From assembly GCA_021791845.1 (NCBI GenBank), contig JAJYVT010000001.1, positions 1 to 64,000 on the forward strand: a stretch of DNA of 64,000 nucleotides. The letters are read 5' to 3'. Each line of letters begins with the position of its first letter. The stretch's first letter is position 1. Shown piece after piece: positions 1 to 53,142 of this stretch. The translations under genes were made by a program, and so were the position numbers. The notes below the pieces were generated by a model. That model was not told the origin of the DNA, ran no database searches, and was given only the letters and a program-made list of their open reading frames with translations. The stretch is from Actinomycetes bacterium (lineage in GTDB: Bacteria > Actinomycetota > Acidimicrobiia > Acidimicrobiales > RAAP-2).

Positions 1-1652
<1,652 letters not shown>

Positions 1653-44293: not shown

Positions 44294-44485
44294 GAAGTTT
44301 ACACCAACGCTCACAGGCATTCTGCATGCAGCGTGCTCCGGTCTGGGCGGGGCAGAGGGACGGGGTGAGGCCAGTGGTGATGACGCCGGGGTTGGGGCTG
44401 TCGGTTGCACCTGGGGGGAAACTACACGATTCCGACGCCCCGGCGGTGCCGGATCACGACGCCCCGGCGTGAGACGGGCCGGCCC

Positions 44486-45523
44486 ATGACCGACGCGGCA
44501 GCCAGCGCGGCGCCGACGGGCGGCGACGCCATTGCCGACCGGGTGCGCAACGCCCTGGCGGCGCGCGCCTTCCGGATCGTGTACCAACCCATCGTCGACC
44601 TCGCCGAGGGCGTCGTGGTGGCGGTCGAGGCGCTCTCCCGGTTCACCGCCGAGCCCTACGGCCCGCCGGACGTCTGGTTCGCCGACGCGTGGCAGGTGGG
44701 GATGGGGGCCGAGCTCGAGCTGGCGGCCTTCGAGGCCGCATTGGCCGACCTCCACCACGTCCCGGCGGGCTGCCGGGTGGCGGTCAACCTCAGCCCCCCG
44801 GTGATCGCCCATCCGGACCTCCTGGGCTACGTGGCGGCCGCCGGCCCGGCCCGGGTCGTCATCGAGCTGACCGAGCACGTCGCCGTGCACGACTACGACC
44901 GCGTGCGCTCGGCGGTTGCGATCTTGCGCGGGCGGGGGGCGAAGCTCGCCGTCGACGACATGGGCGCCGGCTTCGCCAGCTTCCGGCACATCGTGAAGCT
45001 GGCACCCGACATCATCAAGCTCGACCGCGAGCTCGTCAGTGGCATCGACGCCGACCCGGTCCGTCGTAGCGTTGCCACTGCCATGGTCAACTTCGCCAGC
45101 GACGTGGGCTCGGACATCGTGGCCGAGGGCATCGAGACCCGCGGCGAGCTCGAGGCGGTCCGGGCCCTCGGCATCCGCTACGGCCAGGGCATGCTCCTCG
45201 GTGCGCCCGGACCGGTGGAGTCCCTTTCGACGTCCACACCCTTCCCCCTGCCCGACCCCCGGCCGGAGCCCTTGTCCGACCCTTCGCCCGACCGCCAACC
45301 GGCGGCCCTGCGCCCGAGGCCGCACCCGCCCGCCGGCCACGACCACCTGGCGGCCACGGCGGAGGCGCTCTCCCGGCTGGTCGAGGCCGCCGGGCACGGC
45401 GACCTCAGCGCCGAGCCGGCCGAGCTCGCCACCCTCGACCAGGCCGTGGCGGCCATCGCTCGCATCGCGGCGCGCCACGGCGCCCCCGAGCCCGTGGCCG
45501 CCCCGGGGGCGCCATGGGCATGA
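44486..45523 (+). CDS. EAL-domain cyclic-di-GMP phosphodiesterase
   Basis: EAL proteins hydrolyse cyclic di-GMP. Residues about 25-255 contain VEALSRF (the EAL motif), VAVNLSPPV, VVIELTEH, LAVDDMGAGFASF (DDFG-type, Phe to Met), IIKLDRELV and IVAEGIETRGE, so the metal and catalytic residues are present and activity is likely. A Pro-rich linker and a C-terminal 60-residue Ala/Glu helical part follow. No GGDEF or transmembrane part is present. It overlaps the fliG start by 10 bp, tying c-di-GMP turnover to the flagellar switch. Confidence 0.9.
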   Translation: MTDAAASAAPTGGDAIADRVRNALAARAFRIVYQPIVDLAEGVVVAVEALSRFTAEPYGPPDVWFADAWQVGMGAELELAAFEAALADLHHVPAGCRVAVNLSPPVIAHPDLLGYVAAAGPARVVIELTEHVAVHDYDRVRSAVAILRGRGAKLAVDDMGAGFASFRHIVKLAPDIIKLDRELVSGIDADPVRRSVATAMVNFASDVGSDIVAEGIETRGELEAVRALGIRYGQGMLLGAPGPVESLSTSTPFPLPDPRPEPLSDPSPDRQPAALRPRPHPPAGHDHLAATAEALSRLVEAAGHGDLSAEPAELATLDQAVAAIARIAARHGAPEPVAAPGAPWA

Positions 45524-46521
45524 ACCTGACCGGACCGCAGCGGGCGGCCGTCGTGTTCGCCCAGCTCGACGACACGCGGGCCCAGACGCTCCTCCGGGTC
45601 CTTTCGGAGAACGACGTGGTGCGGCTCCTGGCCGAGGTCGCCACCCTGCCGGCCATCGGCCACGACGACGTCATCGAGGTGATGAGCGAGTTCACCACCC
45701 AGGCCGCCGCCTACCGCCAGGTGCGCCAGGGCGGCATCGAGGTTGCCCGCCGCTGGCTCGAGGAGCGCCTGGGCCAGCACAAGGCGGCGGAGATCCTCTC
45801 CGAGCTCGAGACCTTCAGCACCACCCAGCCGCTCGACTACCTCAACTTCATCGACCCGGCCCAGATCGCCGGGTTCCTCCAGGACGAGCACCCGCAGGTG
45901 TCCGCGGTGGTGCTGGCCAACATCGACTCGGAGCGCGCCGCCCGGGTCATCGACCGCTTCCCCGAGCAGCTGGCCACCGACGTCGTGCGGCGGATCGCCA
46001 CCATGGGCGCCATCCCTCCGGCCGTGGTCCAGCAGATGGCCGAGAGCCTCGAGAGCCGGCTCGCCAACCTCCGGCGGTCGGGGTTCGGCGACAGCGTCGT
46101 GGGCGGGGTGGCGACGGCGGCGGCGGTGCTGAACAACGTCGACCGGGCGGCGGAGCAGGAGGTGCTGGCCCGGATCGAAGCCAGCGACCCCGAGCTGGCC
46201 GAGCACATCCGCAACGAGATGTTCGTGTTCGACGACGTGGTCCAGCTCGACGACGGGACGCTGCAAGTGGTGCTGCGCAACGTCAACCTGCGGGACATGG
46301 CCCTGGCCATCAAGACGGCGACCCCCGACGTGCGGGACAAGTTCGTCCGCAACCTGTCCGAGCGCGGCGCCGCCGACCTGGAGGAGGAGCTGACGTCGCT
46401 CGGGCCGCAGCGCCTCTCGGCCATCGAGGCGGCGCAAACGGCGGTGGTGAAGGCGGCTCGGGAGCTGGCCGAGAACGGGACCATCACACTCGGACGGGCG
46501 GGCGACGAGCTCATCATGTGA
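45514..46521 (+). CDS. fliG: Flagellar motor switch protein FliG
   Basis: FliG couples the stator to the rotor of the flagellum. The 335-residue protein shows the N-terminal LTGPQRAAVVFAQLDDTRAQTLLRVL, the middle-domain DYLNFIDPAQIAGFLQDEHPQVSAVVLANI (EHPQ motif) and the C-terminal NEMFVFDDVVQLDDGTLQVVLRNVNLRDMALAIK with the torque-related charged helix ending EELTSLGPQRLSAIEAAQ. It is full length. No other flagellar gene lies in the window, so this is an isolated or split locus. ATG at 45520 is an alternative start. Confidence 0.93.
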   Translation: MGMNLTGPQRAAVVFAQLDDTRAQTLLRVLSENDVVRLLAEVATLPAIGHDDVIEVMSEFTTQAAAYRQVRQGGIEVARRWLEERLGQHKAAEILSELETFSTTQPLDYLNFIDPAQIAGFLQDEHPQVSAVVLANIDSERAARVIDRFPEQLATDVVRRIATMGAIPPAVVQQMAESLESRLANLRRSGFGDSVVGGVATAAAVLNNVDRAAEQEVLARIEASDPELAEHIRNEMFVFDDVVQLDDGTLQVVLRNVNLRDMALAIKTATPDVRDKFVRNLSERGAADLEEELTSLGPQRLSAIEAAQTAVVKAARELAENGTITLGRAGDELIM

Positions 46522-46533
46522 CGGCCCCGCCCG

Positions 46534-47739
46534 TCACCGGCCGGCGGGCGGGCCCTCCGCGCACCGCAGCGCCGCCAGCTCGGAGTCGCGGTCCCGCACC
46601 TCGGCGGCGATCGCCGATGCCGCGCTGGGGAACCCGCGCCAAGCGGTCGCCCACCCGATGGGCGCGGCGCCGCCGTCGGCGAGCAGCGCCTCCTCCACCA
46701 GCACCGGCGCCCCGCAGACGAGCGCCAGGTTGAGGGCGTCGCTGGGGCGGGCGTCGACCTCGCCCGCCCCGCCGGGCCCGCCGACCCGGACCACGGCGTA
46801 GAAGGTGTCCTCGGCCAGCGTGGTGACGCGCACGTCCAGCACGCGCCCCCCTGCCGCCCCGACCAGCCCGGCCGCCATGGCGTACGTCATGGGCCGCGGC
46901 GTCTCCAGGGACTCGAGGGTGCAGGCCAGGGCCGTGGCCTCCGCCGCGCCGACGTAGATGGCGAGACGGCGGTCGCCCGTCACCTCCTCGAGCACGACCA
47001 CGTGGAGCCGCCCGCCCGGGCCCTCGCGCTCGGAGCGGCGGACCTCGGCCACGCGGGCCGGCACCCAACTGGGCGCGGCCGGGGGTTCGGTGGAACGTGG
47101 CATGGCGGTGGCCTCCTTCGTGGTCGGGTCCGAACGTGACGTGGCCGCCCCGGGTGCGAGCCGGCGCAGCAGGTTGGCCCGTGCCTGGTGGAGCCGGGCC
47201 TTGACCGCCCCGGCGGTGATCCCGAGCTGGTCGGCGGCCTCCAGGTGGCTCCGGTCACCCCAGTAGAAGGCGAGGACGGCCGCCCGCTGGCCGGGGGGGA
47301 GCGATGCCACCGCCCGCCGGACCTCGCGTGCGGCCGCCTCGGCCTCGGCCCGTTCGGCCGGCCCGCTCTCGTCGGCCGGGAGGTCGAGCGGTGGCGGGAG
47401 CAGGGCGACGGTCTCCCGTTGCCAGCGGCGGGCGACGTTGAGGGCGATGCCGGCGAACCAGGCGCCAAAGCGGTCCGGCGACCGCAGCCGCTCGAGGCCC
47501 ACCAGCGCGGTGACCGCCTCCTCCTGGACGGCGTCGGCGGCCGCACCGTCCCCGAGCATGTGCGCCACCAGGGCGAGGGCCATGGGCCGGTGCCGCCGCA
47601 CCAGGGCGGCGAAGGCGTCGCGGTCGCCGGCCAAGGCGGCGTCGACGAGCGCCGCGTCGTCCCGCTCCCGGCCGCCCGAGTGCTCGCCGTGCCGGGCACG
47701 GCGGCGGAGGCGGGGGTCGTCACGACCGGCGGGTCCCAT
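46534..47739 (-). CDS. ECF sigma factor fused in frame to a bifunctional-nuclease domain
   Basis: Residues 25-195 are an ECF-type sigma factor: region 2 (AFAALVRRHRPMALALVAHM, AVQEEAVTALVGLERLRSPDRFGAWFAGIALNVARRW) and region 4 (SLPPGQRAAVLAFYWG, EAADQLGITAGAVKARLHQARANLLRRL). Residues 240-370 are a DUF151/BFN domain (LAIYVGAAEATALACTLE, PRPMTYAMAAGLV, DTFYAVVRV, EVDARPSDALNLAL). No stop or shift separates them. The linker contains its own ribosome site and ATG (47103), which would make a free 189-residue nuclease. No anti-sigma gene is adjacent. Confidence 0.88.
   Translation of the reverse strand: MGPAGRDDPRLRRRARHGEHSGGRERDDAALVDAALAGDRDAFAALVRRHRPMALALVAHMLGDGAAADAVQEEAVTALVGLERLRSPDRFGAWFAGIALNVARRWQRETVALLPPPLDLPADESGPAERAEAEAAAREVRRAVASLPPGQRAAVLAFYWGDRSHLEAADQLGITAGAVKARLHQARANLLRRLAPGAATSRSDPTTKEATAMPRSTEPPAAPSWVPARVAEVRRSEREGPGGRLHVVVLEEVTGDRRLAIYVGAAEATALACTLESLETPRPMTYAMAAGLVGAAGGRVLDVRVTTLAEDTFYAVVRVGGPGGAGEVDARPSDALNLALVCGAPVLVEEALLADGGAAPIGWATAWRGFPSAASAIAAEVRDRDSELAALRCAEGPPAGR
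47103..47116 (-). promoter_or_regulatory. Internal ribosome site and ATG for the nuclease domain
   Basis: Within the sigma-nuclease frame, AAGGAGG (minus strand, GGAGG at 47112-47116) lies 8 bp before an in-frame ATG at 47103. Spacing and match are as good as any gene in the window. It suggests separate translation of the nuclease domain from the same mRNA. Confidence 0.65.
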
Positions 47740-47927
47740 GTCCCATAGTGCCCCCGGAGCCGGGTCGGGTTAGCTGCGCTCCCCGCAGGGCGGCCGGCGA
47801 CGGGCCTCTACGCTGCAAGCCCGGACCCCCGACCGAGCAATGGGAGGGCAGGAGTGGCGGACTGGACGGGCATGCGGGCGGCGCCGGGCGTCCCCGGGCC
47901 GCCGGCCGCCGCCCCAGGGGGTCGCCG

Positions 47928-49112
47928 GTGACCTGGGTGGTGTGGGCGCTCGGCCTCCTCGTCGTGGTGCTGACGGCGGCGAACGTCGTCTTCACCATGG
48001 TGCTGCCGCGCCGGCCCTTCGGCATCGACCGGCTCACGCTGGTCCTCAACCGGAACGTGCTGCGGACCTTCCGCTGGCTCTCGCGCTTCGCCCCGACCTA
48101 CGAGGCCAAGGACGCCATCCTCGCCCCGGCCGGCCCGGTGGCCCTCGTGGTCCAGCTCCTGGTGTGGGCGGCGGGCCTCACCGTGGGCTTCGGGCTCATG
48201 GTCACCGGCGACCACCACTCGCTGGGCGACGGCCTCCTGCAGTCGCTGGCCTCCGTCTTCACGGTGGGTGCGGCCCACCCGGGCGGTGTCCCGGAGCCGG
48301 CGATCGACGTGGCCGCCGGCGCCATCTGGGTGGTCGTGGTCGCGCTCCAGATCGCCTACCTGCCCACCCTCTACGGCGCCTTCAGCCGGCGCGAGTCGCT
48401 GGTGGCCCTGCTCGAGAGCCGGGCCGGGCTCCCGGCGTGGGGCCCCGAGGTGCTCATCCGCCACCAGCTGGTCGGCATCATCGACACCCTGCCCGACCTG
48501 TACGCGTCGTGGGAGGAGTGGTCGGCGGACGTGGCCGAGAGCCACACCACCTACCCGGTGATGCTCCTCTTCCGGTCGCCCGAGCCCTGGTACTCCTGGG
48601 TGCTCGGGCTCGTCGCCGTGCTCGACGCCGCCGCCATCCACCTGGCCGTCGCCCCCAGCAGCGCCAGCTCCCAGGCCCGGTTGTGCCTGCGGATGGGCTT
48701 CACCGCCCTGGACCGCATCGCCGCCACCCTGGGCTGGGCGGTCGATCCCGACCCGAACCCCGAGGGGCCGATCGACCTCACGTTCGCCCAGTTCGCCGAG
48801 GCCCTCTCGCTGCTGGCGGAGGCGGGGTTCCCGGTCGAGCGCAGCGCCGAGGAGTCCTGGCCCGACTTCCGTGGGTGGCGGGTGAACTACGAGGCCGTCG
48901 CCTACCGCCTGGCCGACGCCCTCACGGCACCCCCGGCACCCTGGTCCGGCCCCCGCCGGCACCTCCGCACAGGGCCGGTCGCACCCCGCCGCCCGCCCCA
49001 GCGCCACCCGGGCGAGAAGTCGGGCTCGCGCAAGCGGTACGCCCACGTGGTGGTGGGTGCCCGTCCCGCCCGCCGGGGCCGCGGCCCGGCCCGGCGCCGC
49101 CCCGCCGGCTGA
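47928..49112 (+). CDS. Integral membrane protein of unknown function
   Basis: The 394-residue protein has membrane segments at about 3-25 (VVWALGLLVVVLTAANVVFTMVL), 60-85 (VALVVQLLVWAAGLTVGFGLMV), 125-147 (AIWVVVVALQIAYLPTLYGAF) and 223-243. Between the second and third lies LLQSLASVFTVGAAHPGG, which resembles the pore-loop position of two-helix ion channels but lacks a TVGYG filter. A soluble helical middle part and a basic Pro/Arg C-terminus follow. AGGGGG lies 7 bp before the GTG. No family is assigned. Confidence 0.7.
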   Translation: MTWVVWALGLLVVVLTAANVVFTMVLPRRPFGIDRLTLVLNRNVLRTFRWLSRFAPTYEAKDAILAPAGPVALVVQLLVWAAGLTVGFGLMVTGDHHSLGDGLLQSLASVFTVGAAHPGGVPEPAIDVAAGAIWVVVVALQIAYLPTLYGAFSRRESLVALLESRAGLPAWGPEVLIRHQLVGIIDTLPDLYASWEEWSADVAESHTTYPVMLLFRSPEPWYSWVLGLVAVLDAAAIHLAVAPSSASSQARLCLRMGFTALDRIAATLGWAVDPDPNPEGPIDLTFAQFAEALSLLAEAGFPVERSAEESWPDFRGWRVNYEAVAYRLADALTAPPAPWSGPRRHLRTGPVAPRRPPQRHPGEKSGSRKRYAHVVVGARPARRGRGPARRRPAG

Positions 49113-50213: not shown

Positions 50214-50391
50214 GCCCTCGTTCTACCAGGGTGCCCGACGGTGGTCTCGGCCGGGGTCGCCCCTCGGCGCGAGGGCCGTGGCACCGGGCCGGGACAGTTG
50301 ACGTGGCGCCGAGCACCGGGGAGACTGCGGTCGGAGAACCGTTGGGAAGAGCAAATTGTTGTCGGTTGTCGGTCGGAGAGCGGGGGGCCAC

Positions 50392-53142
50392 ATGCGGGCG
50401 TTGACCGGCGGGCGTGGAGCCCTTCTGGGCGCGGTCCTCATGGCGGCGAGCGCCGCCGGCACGCTGGTGGTTCCGTCACCGGCCGCCGCCGCGACCACCC
50501 TCACCCTCTACGTGCGCAGCGGGGCGACCGGCACCTCGTGCACAGGGCCCGGCGCGACGGCGTGCGGCTCGATCCAGACAGCCGTCGCCGGGGCGGCGAC
50601 CCACGCCGGAGCCGACGTCACGGTCACAGTGGGGCCGGGCACCTACCACGAGCGCACAATCTCGGTCGACGCCTCGACGCTCGCATCGCTCGATGTCGTG
50701 GGAGCGGGAGCGACGTCCACGACGGTCACATCCGAGGGAGGGCAGGGCTTCTCCGTCACCGCCGGCACCGTCTCCGTCGAGGGGCTCTCGGTCGACCGCG
50801 CCGCAGCGGCGTCCAGCGCCGGCGGCGGCATGCTCGTCACCGGAGGCAGCACCGTCGCGCTCGCCGACGACACGTTCGCCACAGACTCGGCGCTCACAAG
50901 CGGCGGTGTGGACGTGGCGTCCGGCCACGCCACCGTCACCGATGTCACGTTCCTGCGGGACCACGGCGCACAGGGTGGGGGCATGGGCGTCGGACCGACG
51001 AGCTCGGCGGTCGTCACGGGCACCACCTTCACCACGGACGCCGCCCACGACGGCGGCGGAGTGGCCGCCCTCGTCGGAAGCTCGGTGACGCTCGCCGGCG
51101 ACACCTTCACGACAGACCGCGCCACCACAGACGGCGGGGACGTGTGGGCCGACGGAGGCACCCTCCGCTTGACCAGTGACACCGTGGCGCGGGGCAATGC
51201 GCGAACAGGTGGCGGGGTGGGCATCGTCGACGGCGCCACAGCCGCCTTGTCCAACGACACCTTCACCAACGACCTCGCGGTGTCCACAACAGGTCGTGGC
51301 GGGTACGGCGGCGGCGTCTTGCTGCGCGGTGCCACCGCCACCCTCACCGACGACCAGTTCTCGCCGGACTACGCCACCTCCACAGGCAGCGGCATCACAG
51401 TCACACACAGCACAGCCGTCCTCTCGAGCGACACGTTCGCCACAGACTTCGTGAAGGACGTCGGATCGATCGTGAAGGTTGGCAACGGCACGGCCACGCT
51501 CGTCAACGACACCCTCGCACTCGACGGGGCAGCGACAGCCGGCCGCTTGGTGGGGGCCTTCGCCAGCGTCGTCACCTTGAGGAACGACACCCTCTCGACA
51601 GATGCGGCCCCAACAGGCGGCGGGATCCTCAACACATCGTCGGTCGTCCGGGCCGCCAACTCGATCTTCGCCAACGCCTCGTGCGCAGGAGCGGTGACCG
51701 ACCTCGGCTCCAACGTCGAGACCGGAGACTCGTGCGGCTTCGGCGCGACGAGCATCAACACAAGCACCTCGATCAACCTGGGGCCGCTCGCCGCCAACAC
51801 ATCGGCCGGGCCCACCACCCGGGCCATCGGGAAGACAAGCTCGGCCTTCGAAGCGGTCCCCCCGTCCTCGTGCACACCGCTGGTCGACGAGCGTGGCAAG
51901 CCCCGCCCCGGCGTGCCCGGCCACAACTGCGACGCCGGCGCCTACGAGTACCAAGGGCACCAGGGGGTCTCGGGCCGGGCCGTCACCGCCGAGCGCATCT
52001 TCGGGCAGACGGCGGACGGGACGGCCGCCGCCGAGCTTGCCTCCGCCTTCCCACCCGGGGCCTGCCCGGGGACGGCCGGGGACCGGCCGGTGGTGCTCGC
52101 CACCGACCAGAGCCCCTCCGACGCCCTGGCGAGCGCCTATCTGGCAGCAGCGTTGGGCACGGGGACCCTGCTCACGCCGAGCACCTCGCTCGCTCCGGTC
52201 ACGGTCCAGGCCCTCAGGAGCGAAGGCATCACCCGGGTCTACGTGGTGGGCGGGCCCCTGGCGATCTCGACCGCGGTGGTGGACGAGCTCGGGGCCACCC
52301 CGGCGTACCGCTGCGGCGGCACCGGGGCCACCGGCACGAACCTCGAGGTCACCCGCATCTTCGGGGCCACGGCGCCGACAACGGCGGCCAGGATCGCGGC
52401 CACCCCGCCGGCGGACTTCGTCGGCCGCCTCGACCTCTCGGGCGCCTACGGGGGGACCAACCCGAGCGGGGGGGTGGGCCGGTTCAACACCACGGCTGGG
52501 GGCGCCTCGGACGCCCCGTCGCGCCCCGGGGCCCTTGCGACCGCCATCGTGGCCACCGACCGGAGCTTCCAGGACGCCGAGTCGGCGGCCGCCCTCTCCT
52601 ATGGCGCCCACGTGCCGGTCCTGCTGACCACACCCGGATCGTTGCCCGCGTCCACCCGAGGGGCCCTCGTGGCCCTGGGGATCACCCAGGTGGTCGTGAT
52701 GGGCGGGCCCCTGGCGGTTGCCACATCGGTGGTCGGCGCGATGCGGGCGCTCGGGATCTCGGTGCTGCGGGTGGCGGGCGCCGACGGCACGGCCACCTCG
52801 GTCGCCTTGGCCGGGCTCGAGACGGCCCCGGCGTCCCTTGGGAGCGGACTGGGCTGGGACGCCCGAACACCGGGCTTCGTGGTCGCCCGCGGCGACTACT
52901 TCGCCGACGGCCTGGCCGGGGCGGTCGTGGCCGCCCATGGGCGCCACGCCTCGGGACCGGTCCCGCTCCTTCTGACGAAGGACCCGTCGACACTCGGGTC
53001 GGCGCTCGGCTCCTATCTCCGCCACGCCGGCGCCACGGGCATCGGCGCCCAGCGGCGGCCCGCCGCCTTCCTCGTCGTCCTGGGGGGACCCGAGGCCGTG
53101 ACGCCCTCGGTCGTGAGCACGATGGAGTCGGACCTCTCGTAG
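50392..53142 (+). CDS. Secreted beta-helix protein with cell-wall-binding repeats (CW_binding_2)
   Basis: The 916-residue product has a signal peptide (about 8-35), then a right-handed beta-helix-type region of about 500 residues with recurring SNDTFTND- and SSDTFATD-like turns roughly every 22 residues. A Cys-containing EYQ-type end leads to three CW_binding_2 repeats (about 530-916). These share motifs with the protein at 39-42 kb: PVVLATD, DALASAYLA, VYVVGGPLAISTAVV, IVATDRSFQDAESA, VVVMGGPLAV and DGLAGAVVAA. GGAGAG and a G-run precede the ATG. A wall-attached adhesin or polysaccharide-active protein is inferred. Confidence 0.83.
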   Translation: MRALTGGRGALLGAVLMAASAAGTLVVPSPAAAATTLTLYVRSGATGTSCTGPGATACGSIQTAVAGAATHAGADVTVTVGPGTYHERTISVDASTLASLDVVGAGATSTTVTSEGGQGFSVTAGTVSVEGLSVDRAAAASSAGGGMLVTGGSTVALADDTFATDSALTSGGVDVASGHATVTDVTFLRDHGAQGGGMGVGPTSSAVVTGTTFTTDAAHDGGGVAALVGSSVTLAGDTFTTDRATTDGGDVWADGGTLRLTSDTVARGNARTGGGVGIVDGATAALSNDTFTNDLAVSTTGRGGYGGGVLLRGATATLTDDQFSPDYATSTGSGITVTHSTAVLSSDTFATDFVKDVGSIVKVGNGTATLVNDTLALDGAATAGRLVGAFASVVTLRNDTLSTDAAPTGGGILNTSSVVRAANSIFANASCAGAVTDLGSNVETGDSCGFGATSINTSTSINLGPLAANTSAGPTTRAIGKTSSAFEAVPPSSCTPLVDERGKPRPGVPGHNCDAGAYEYQGHQGVSGRAVTAERIFGQTADGTAAAELASAFPPGACPGTAGDRPVVLATDQSPSDALASAYLAAALGTGTLLTPSTSLAPVTVQALRSEGITRVYVVGGPLAISTAVVDELGATPAYRCGGTGATGTNLEVTRIFGATAPTTAARIAATPPADFVGRLDLSGAYGGTNPSGGVGRFNTTAGGASDAPSRPGALATAIVATDRSFQDAESAAALSYGAHVPVLLTTPGSLPASTRGALVALGITQVVVMGGPLAVATSVVGAMRALGISVLRVAGADGTATSVALAGLETAPASLGSGLGWDARTPGFVVARGDYFADGLAGAVVAAHGRHASGPVPLLLTKDPSTLGSALGSYLRHAGATGIGAQRRPAAFLVVLGGPEAVTPSVVSTMESDLS

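Follow-up and report, generated by a model that had tools for sequence, protein, structure and literature searches.

ECF sigma factors are a major means by which bacteria switch gene programmes, and, to our knowledge, the control of those ECF factors that work without an anti-sigma factor is largely open. Members of the group that carry C-terminal extensions are known (PMC8999054). The gene described here resembles them in having an ECF core, no adjacent anti-sigma gene and an extra folded, possibly regulatory domain at its C-terminus. Unlike them, it carries as its C-terminal domain BFN/DUF151, which is unmentioned in that review, and it has an internal start from which that domain could be made alone.

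BFN domains usually occur on their own. Known examples are TM0160 and Rv1829, in which they form dimers (PMC7249048), and the plant proteins BBD1/2. Asp, His and Thr have been reported as putative catalytic residues of TM0160 (PMC7249048), a triad proposed from the crystal structure only, and nuclease activity has been shown for plant BBD proteins (PMC7249048). In the literature that we searched we found no nuclease activity for a bacterial BFN, and nothing relevant that connects BFN proteins to transcription termination or to Rho. In the present gene, the domain has the same fold as TM0160, Rv1829 and BBD1/2 and likewise keeps the Asp of the RPSDA motif, but it differs from them in that BFN domains of its type are joined to a sigma factor, have the His replaced in seven of eight cases and form a separate clade.

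A third point of comparison is RpnL/RpnS, where an internal start yields a C-terminal product that binds the full-length protein and inhibits it (PMC10327210). The likeness lies in the internal start for a C-terminal domain and in the dimerising kind of domain that is involved. Rpn, however, is a toxin-antitoxin nuclease, whereas here the protein is a sigma factor, whose inhibition by the short product is hypothetical. Neither a sigma-BFN architecture, that is, a BFN extension on an ECF factor, nor a conserved internal start in an ECF factor with a C-terminal extension was found in the literature searched; for the architecture, the main ECF re-classification paper (2021) lay outside that literature.

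The sigma-BFN gene and its relatives

The gene lies at 46534..47739 on the minus strand of the window, the whole 64,000-nucleotide stretch of DNA analysed here. It encodes 401 amino acids in one open frame of 401 codons (47739->46537), which runs from the ATG at 47739 to the stop at 46536-46534; the start is backed by a conserved promoter that ends 5 nt 5' of the ATG. The sigma part is an ECF factor by its domains, given that region 2 (residues 46-108; 47416..47604, minus strand) and region 4 (residues 138-190; 47170..47328, minus strand) exceed the curated cut-offs of PF04542 Sigma70_r2 (34.9 bits against 24) and PF08281 Sigma70_r4_2 (54 bits against 25.7), with no sigma domain between them. 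It also matches TIGR02937 (68.8 bits, cut-off 42.9). Residues 248-357 (46669..46998, minus strand) form the BFN/DUF151 domain, and membership of this family is indicated both by the PF02577 BFN_dom score (91.9 bits, cut-off 27) and by the fold, the modelled domain resembling the TM0160 structure 1vjl with a TM-score of 0.82 by target (Foldseek). BFN_dom is the only C-terminal domain detected with Pfam; the SnoaL-like domain of ECF41-type proteins is absent. In the AlphaFold2 model (mean pLDDT 86), an unstructured linker separates two confidently predicted domains. This flexible linker, at about residues 198-222 (47074..47148, minus strand), is delimited by pLDDT, which is below 50 at residues 198-216, and by in-frame length variation among homologs.

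The first-pass annotation had read the locus as ECF regions 2 and 4 followed by a BFN domain in a single frame, and this is borne out by the stop-free translation, by Pfam and by seven homologous fusions. The latter are spread over seven further genomes of Actinomycetota, each with the full-length fusion in one frame, at 41-48% identity to the window protein. Two separate genes might still have been merged by a sequencing or assembly error, as the window comes from a draft assembly of 160 contigs. However, the one-frame fusions of the seven other genomes exclude a sequencing artefact, a missed stop or a frameshift at the linker, and close relatives with separate genes were not found among the genomes searched; we consider such an error vanishingly improbable.

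The spread of the fusion is rare and patchy. Two of the seven fusions (L001 and L002) are in Actinomycetota metagenome genomes. Three more (in G101, G088 and G073) represent all three sampled genomes of their class, G134 is the only one of 35 genomes in its family to have the fusion, and G849 is alone in having it both among the 395 genomes of a large class sample and among the 22 of its family. The window genome excepted, the fusion was found neither among 60 relatives nor in the rest of a 248-genome sample of the order; the genus of the window organism, taken as a comparison set, lacks it and was therefore uninformative. A mobile or viral element was considered as the carrier and rejected: the viral contigs searched encoded no relative, and none of the plasmid records searched held the fusion.

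In the sigma tree, all fusions and one sister gene, L075, form a single clade (100/99). In the BFN tree, all fusions and one degenerate copy, L083, form a single clade (100/100) apart from the stand-alone BFN domains, and the well-supported pairs branch alike in the two trees. Judged from these sequences, the sigma-BFN fusion is real and old. The clade of nine genes considered below, eight BFN fusions and L075, comprises about five or six independent lineages and comes mostly from metagenome assemblies. Genome searches found no unfused close relative of the sigma part, eight being joined to BFN and that of L075 to another module. L075 (L075:1231-2055, minus strand) shares the promoter of the fusions and likewise has an SD-ATG inside the gene, and its short non-BFN module has no Pfam match; two small ORFs downstream (113-415 and 434-853, minus strand) have Cys-rich ends that resemble peptide precursors by eye. 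The sole stand-alone member of the fusion-type BFN clade that was found is L083 (L083:1423-1938, minus strand, in G667), shortened and altered, with RCSD replacing RPSD, and likely a decayed copy; G667 also carries the intact fusion L002.

That no anti-sigma gene adjoins the window gene, as had been noted at first, was confirmed, and none was recognised beside the other fusions or beside any family member examined. The neighbours vary by genome: an alpha/beta hydrolase and a prolyl oligopeptidase, a GDSL lipase and an FtsX permease, a SpoIIE-type phosphatase and an MFS protein, or a glyoxalase and an AHSA1 protein, the two neighbours of L115 being without a Pfam match. In the window, an EAL-domain gene that overlaps a complete fliG (44405-46521, plus strand) converges on the sigma-BFN gene with 12 bp between the stops. 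On the other side is a divergent ORF without a Pfam match (47748-49112, plus strand), the true start of which is probably later than listed, because the listed start falls inside the sigma promoter. Further along, a long secreted-looking ORF (50356-53142, plus strand) ends in CWB2 cell-wall-binding repeats.

An internal ribosome site at the junction

A GGAGG 8 bp upstream of an in-frame ATG at 47103 had been noted in the first reading, and the site proved to be slightly stronger than described. The Shine-Dalgarno sequence is AAGGAGG (47112..47118, minus strand), with an 8-nt spacer to the ATG and a duplex energy of -11.0 kcal/mol, a strength against the anti-SD that is equalled by only 0.4% of the in-frame ATGs inside genes that served as controls (224 in all). 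Translation from this ATG predicts a free BFN protein of 189 amino acids (46534..47103, minus strand).

SD-like sites within GC-rich genes arise by chance at a few percent. Among the nine genes, the junction ATG is preceded by an SD at 5-8 nt in every case, with duplex energies of -7.3 to -11.7 kcal/mol; among the 224 control ATGs, 8.9% have a site of -7.3 kcal/mol or below, and only seven follow GGAGG or AAGGAG. All nine genes have the mark of a gene within a gene, namely a conserved in-frame internal ribosome site with a start. In the seven fusions that were aligned, the sole invariant linker residue is Glu209, which is encoded by the GAG of the internal SD, and the remaining linker is barely alignable. 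The linkers are 15 to 41 amino acids long, all in frame and free of stops. Folding of the mRNA at the internal SD was uninformative (unpaired probability 0.28-0.79).

One could envision that only the fusion is made and that the SD-ATG inside the gene is left over from a time when BFN was a separate gene behind the sigma gene in an operon. The ATG is indeed placed exactly at the expected start of a BFN protein. However, a relic should decay, whereas the SD is kept in nine of nine genes despite a poorly aligning linker and shifts in spacing of 5-8 nt, and we think that this explanation is very unlikely. Both products appear to matter, because the linkers stay free of stops and the SD persists; stops would be tolerated if the separate products alone were needed, and the SD could decay if the fusion alone were. 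The conservation of the SD-ATG across a diverged clade supports the original proposal that one gene could yield a fusion and a free BFN. Two products from the sigma-BFN gene are, on this evidence, well supported, and we strongly infer that the free BFN is made from the internal start.

The BFN domain of the fusions

The fused BFN domains depart from the putative catalytic Asp-His-Thr of TM0160. The conserved Asp of RPSDA is kept in all eight (Asp334 in the window protein), but the putative catalytic His is replaced in seven (Tyr286 in the window protein), L107 being the one fusion that retains it, and the Thr is replaced in three. The His is present in 39 of 40 stand-alone BFN domains. The first-pass annotation had labelled the domain a nuclease, and the loss of the His in seven of eight fusions, against its retention in nearly all stand-alone domains, speaks against that label, as does the literature searched, in which activity is reported for plant BBD proteins only (PMC7249048). 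Because the His is lost while the triad itself is only a proposal from a structure, the nuclease reading is lowered, short of exclusion; on these residues, calling the fused BFN a nuclease is not warranted. The proposed role in nucleic-acid turnover is weak in turn, as it follows from the unsupported nuclease reading. What stands of the first interpretation is the fusion, the internal start and the absence of an anti-sigma gene.

A garA-merR-bfn cluster is found across Actinobacteria (PMC6683498). The window genome (G000) also has a cluster of this type, and the fused BFN, unlike the BFN of the cluster, lies outside it. The canonical stand-alone BFN of the window organism (L111:2394-2924, plus strand) keeps the His (RPMTHD) and adjoins a MerR-like gene. 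Because this genome retains a canonical BFN and the His is lost in the fusions, the fused BFN is a diverged paralogue.

A conserved promoter and a proposed control circuit

Upstream of all nine genes is a putative promoter, STAACC-N17-SAC(T/C)N(T/C), in which the spacer is always 17 nt. In the window, the −35 element CTAACC is at 47768..47773 (minus strand), and the −10 element CACTAT is at 47745..47750 (minus strand), 5 nt before the ATG; STAACC is present in nine of nine members. Information per column is 1.83 bits in the −35 element, 1.54 in the −10 element, 0.74 in the spacer and 0.41 in the upstream flank. CTAACC is combined with CACTAT in five members and GTAACC with a −10 of the GAC type in the other four, and these C/C and G/G forms track the branches of the sigma tree. 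The motif was found in none of 32 other ECF genes used as controls. The start codon is located 3 or 5 nt past the −10 element in eight of the nine genes, and L044 has the promoter without a leaderless start; the arrangement suggests leaderless translation of the full-length sigma.

Two related promoter patterns were used to scan the whole assemblies of eight genomes. In the window assembly, G543, G088 and G073 both patterns matched at this gene and nowhere else, and in G134 the same held for the second pattern; the extra matches in G666 and G667 were about as numerous as those from a reversed-pattern control. No other convincing targets, and hence no wider regulon, were found with the two patterns in the eight genomes; draft assemblies and strict patterns could conceal further ones. 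A conserved, apparently private promoter upstream of all nine genes is new. Because this promoter is conserved in nine of nine genes, private in most genomes and absent from the control ECF genes, the sigma-BFN gene is probably self-activated. A self-recognised promoter with matching −35 and −10 elements is usual among ECF factors, though not required of them. Autoregulation with a very small regulon would be the simplest reading, and we strongly infer that the promoter is recognised by the product of its own gene; it could instead be read by another sigma.

The explanation that we favour, with a probability as a whole of about 0.5, is that the gene encodes an ECF factor that activates its own expression and has its regulator, the BFN domain, built in. 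The sigma-BFN protein would recognise CTAACC-N17-CACTAT directly 5' of its own gene and transcribe the gene; the fusion would be translated from the leaderless start, and ribosomes would also initiate at the internal SD to give free BFN from the same mRNA. The fused BFN, with its putative His gone, would be a sensing or pairing module more than a nuclease. Free BFN would be expected to dimerise with the fused BFN domain and thereby to adjust the activity of the fusion, and the pairing would damp or release the positive feedback, standing in for an anti-sigma factor. Such pairing is plausible because BFN dimers are known (PMC7249048) and RpnS/RpnL provides a precedent (PMC10327210). The last step alone, that free BFN pairs with and controls the fusion, is one that we hold tentatively, at slightly less than even odds.

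Two other scenarios assign the BFN domain a different task. One scenario is that the sigma serves to activate the gene that encodes it and that the free BFN is the working product, a nuclease or other effector acting on nucleic acids, with positive feedback setting its dose; the fusion would then be mainly a sigma with a passive tail. The conserved internal SD, the private promoter, the retained Asp and a BFN fold that is intact in the model are consistent with such an effector; the lost His and the Thr replacements are not, and a passive fusion would tolerate stops in the linker, of which none was seen despite the length changes. We regard this scenario as unlikely. Alternatively, BFN might be a tether that brings an RNA/DNA-acting domain or partner to RNA polymerase at the promoters of this sigma, with the free form competing. 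The long maintenance of the fusion and the flexible linker would suit a tether, but the patterns used gave no convincing promoter targets besides its own, and the putative catalytic site is altered, so that we find it distinctly unlikely.

The C-terminal module is BFN in eight members, whereas L075 has another one, which is likewise preceded by an internal SD. The self-activating sigma with a built-in regulator might thus exemplify a class of ECF factors whose own gene is the main or only target and in which the role of an anti-sigma factor falls to a C-terminal domain that is made from an internal start, binds the sigma and controls it, the module being exchangeable; this generalisation is possible but rather doubtful. 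For ECF control without an anti-sigma factor, the family may offer a compact answer, in which about 1.25 kb hold a switch, a promoter and a candidate regulator. It would tie to transcription a poorly understood domain that occurs across bacteria and plants, and it would be an example of a second protein from one gene that annotation would miss.
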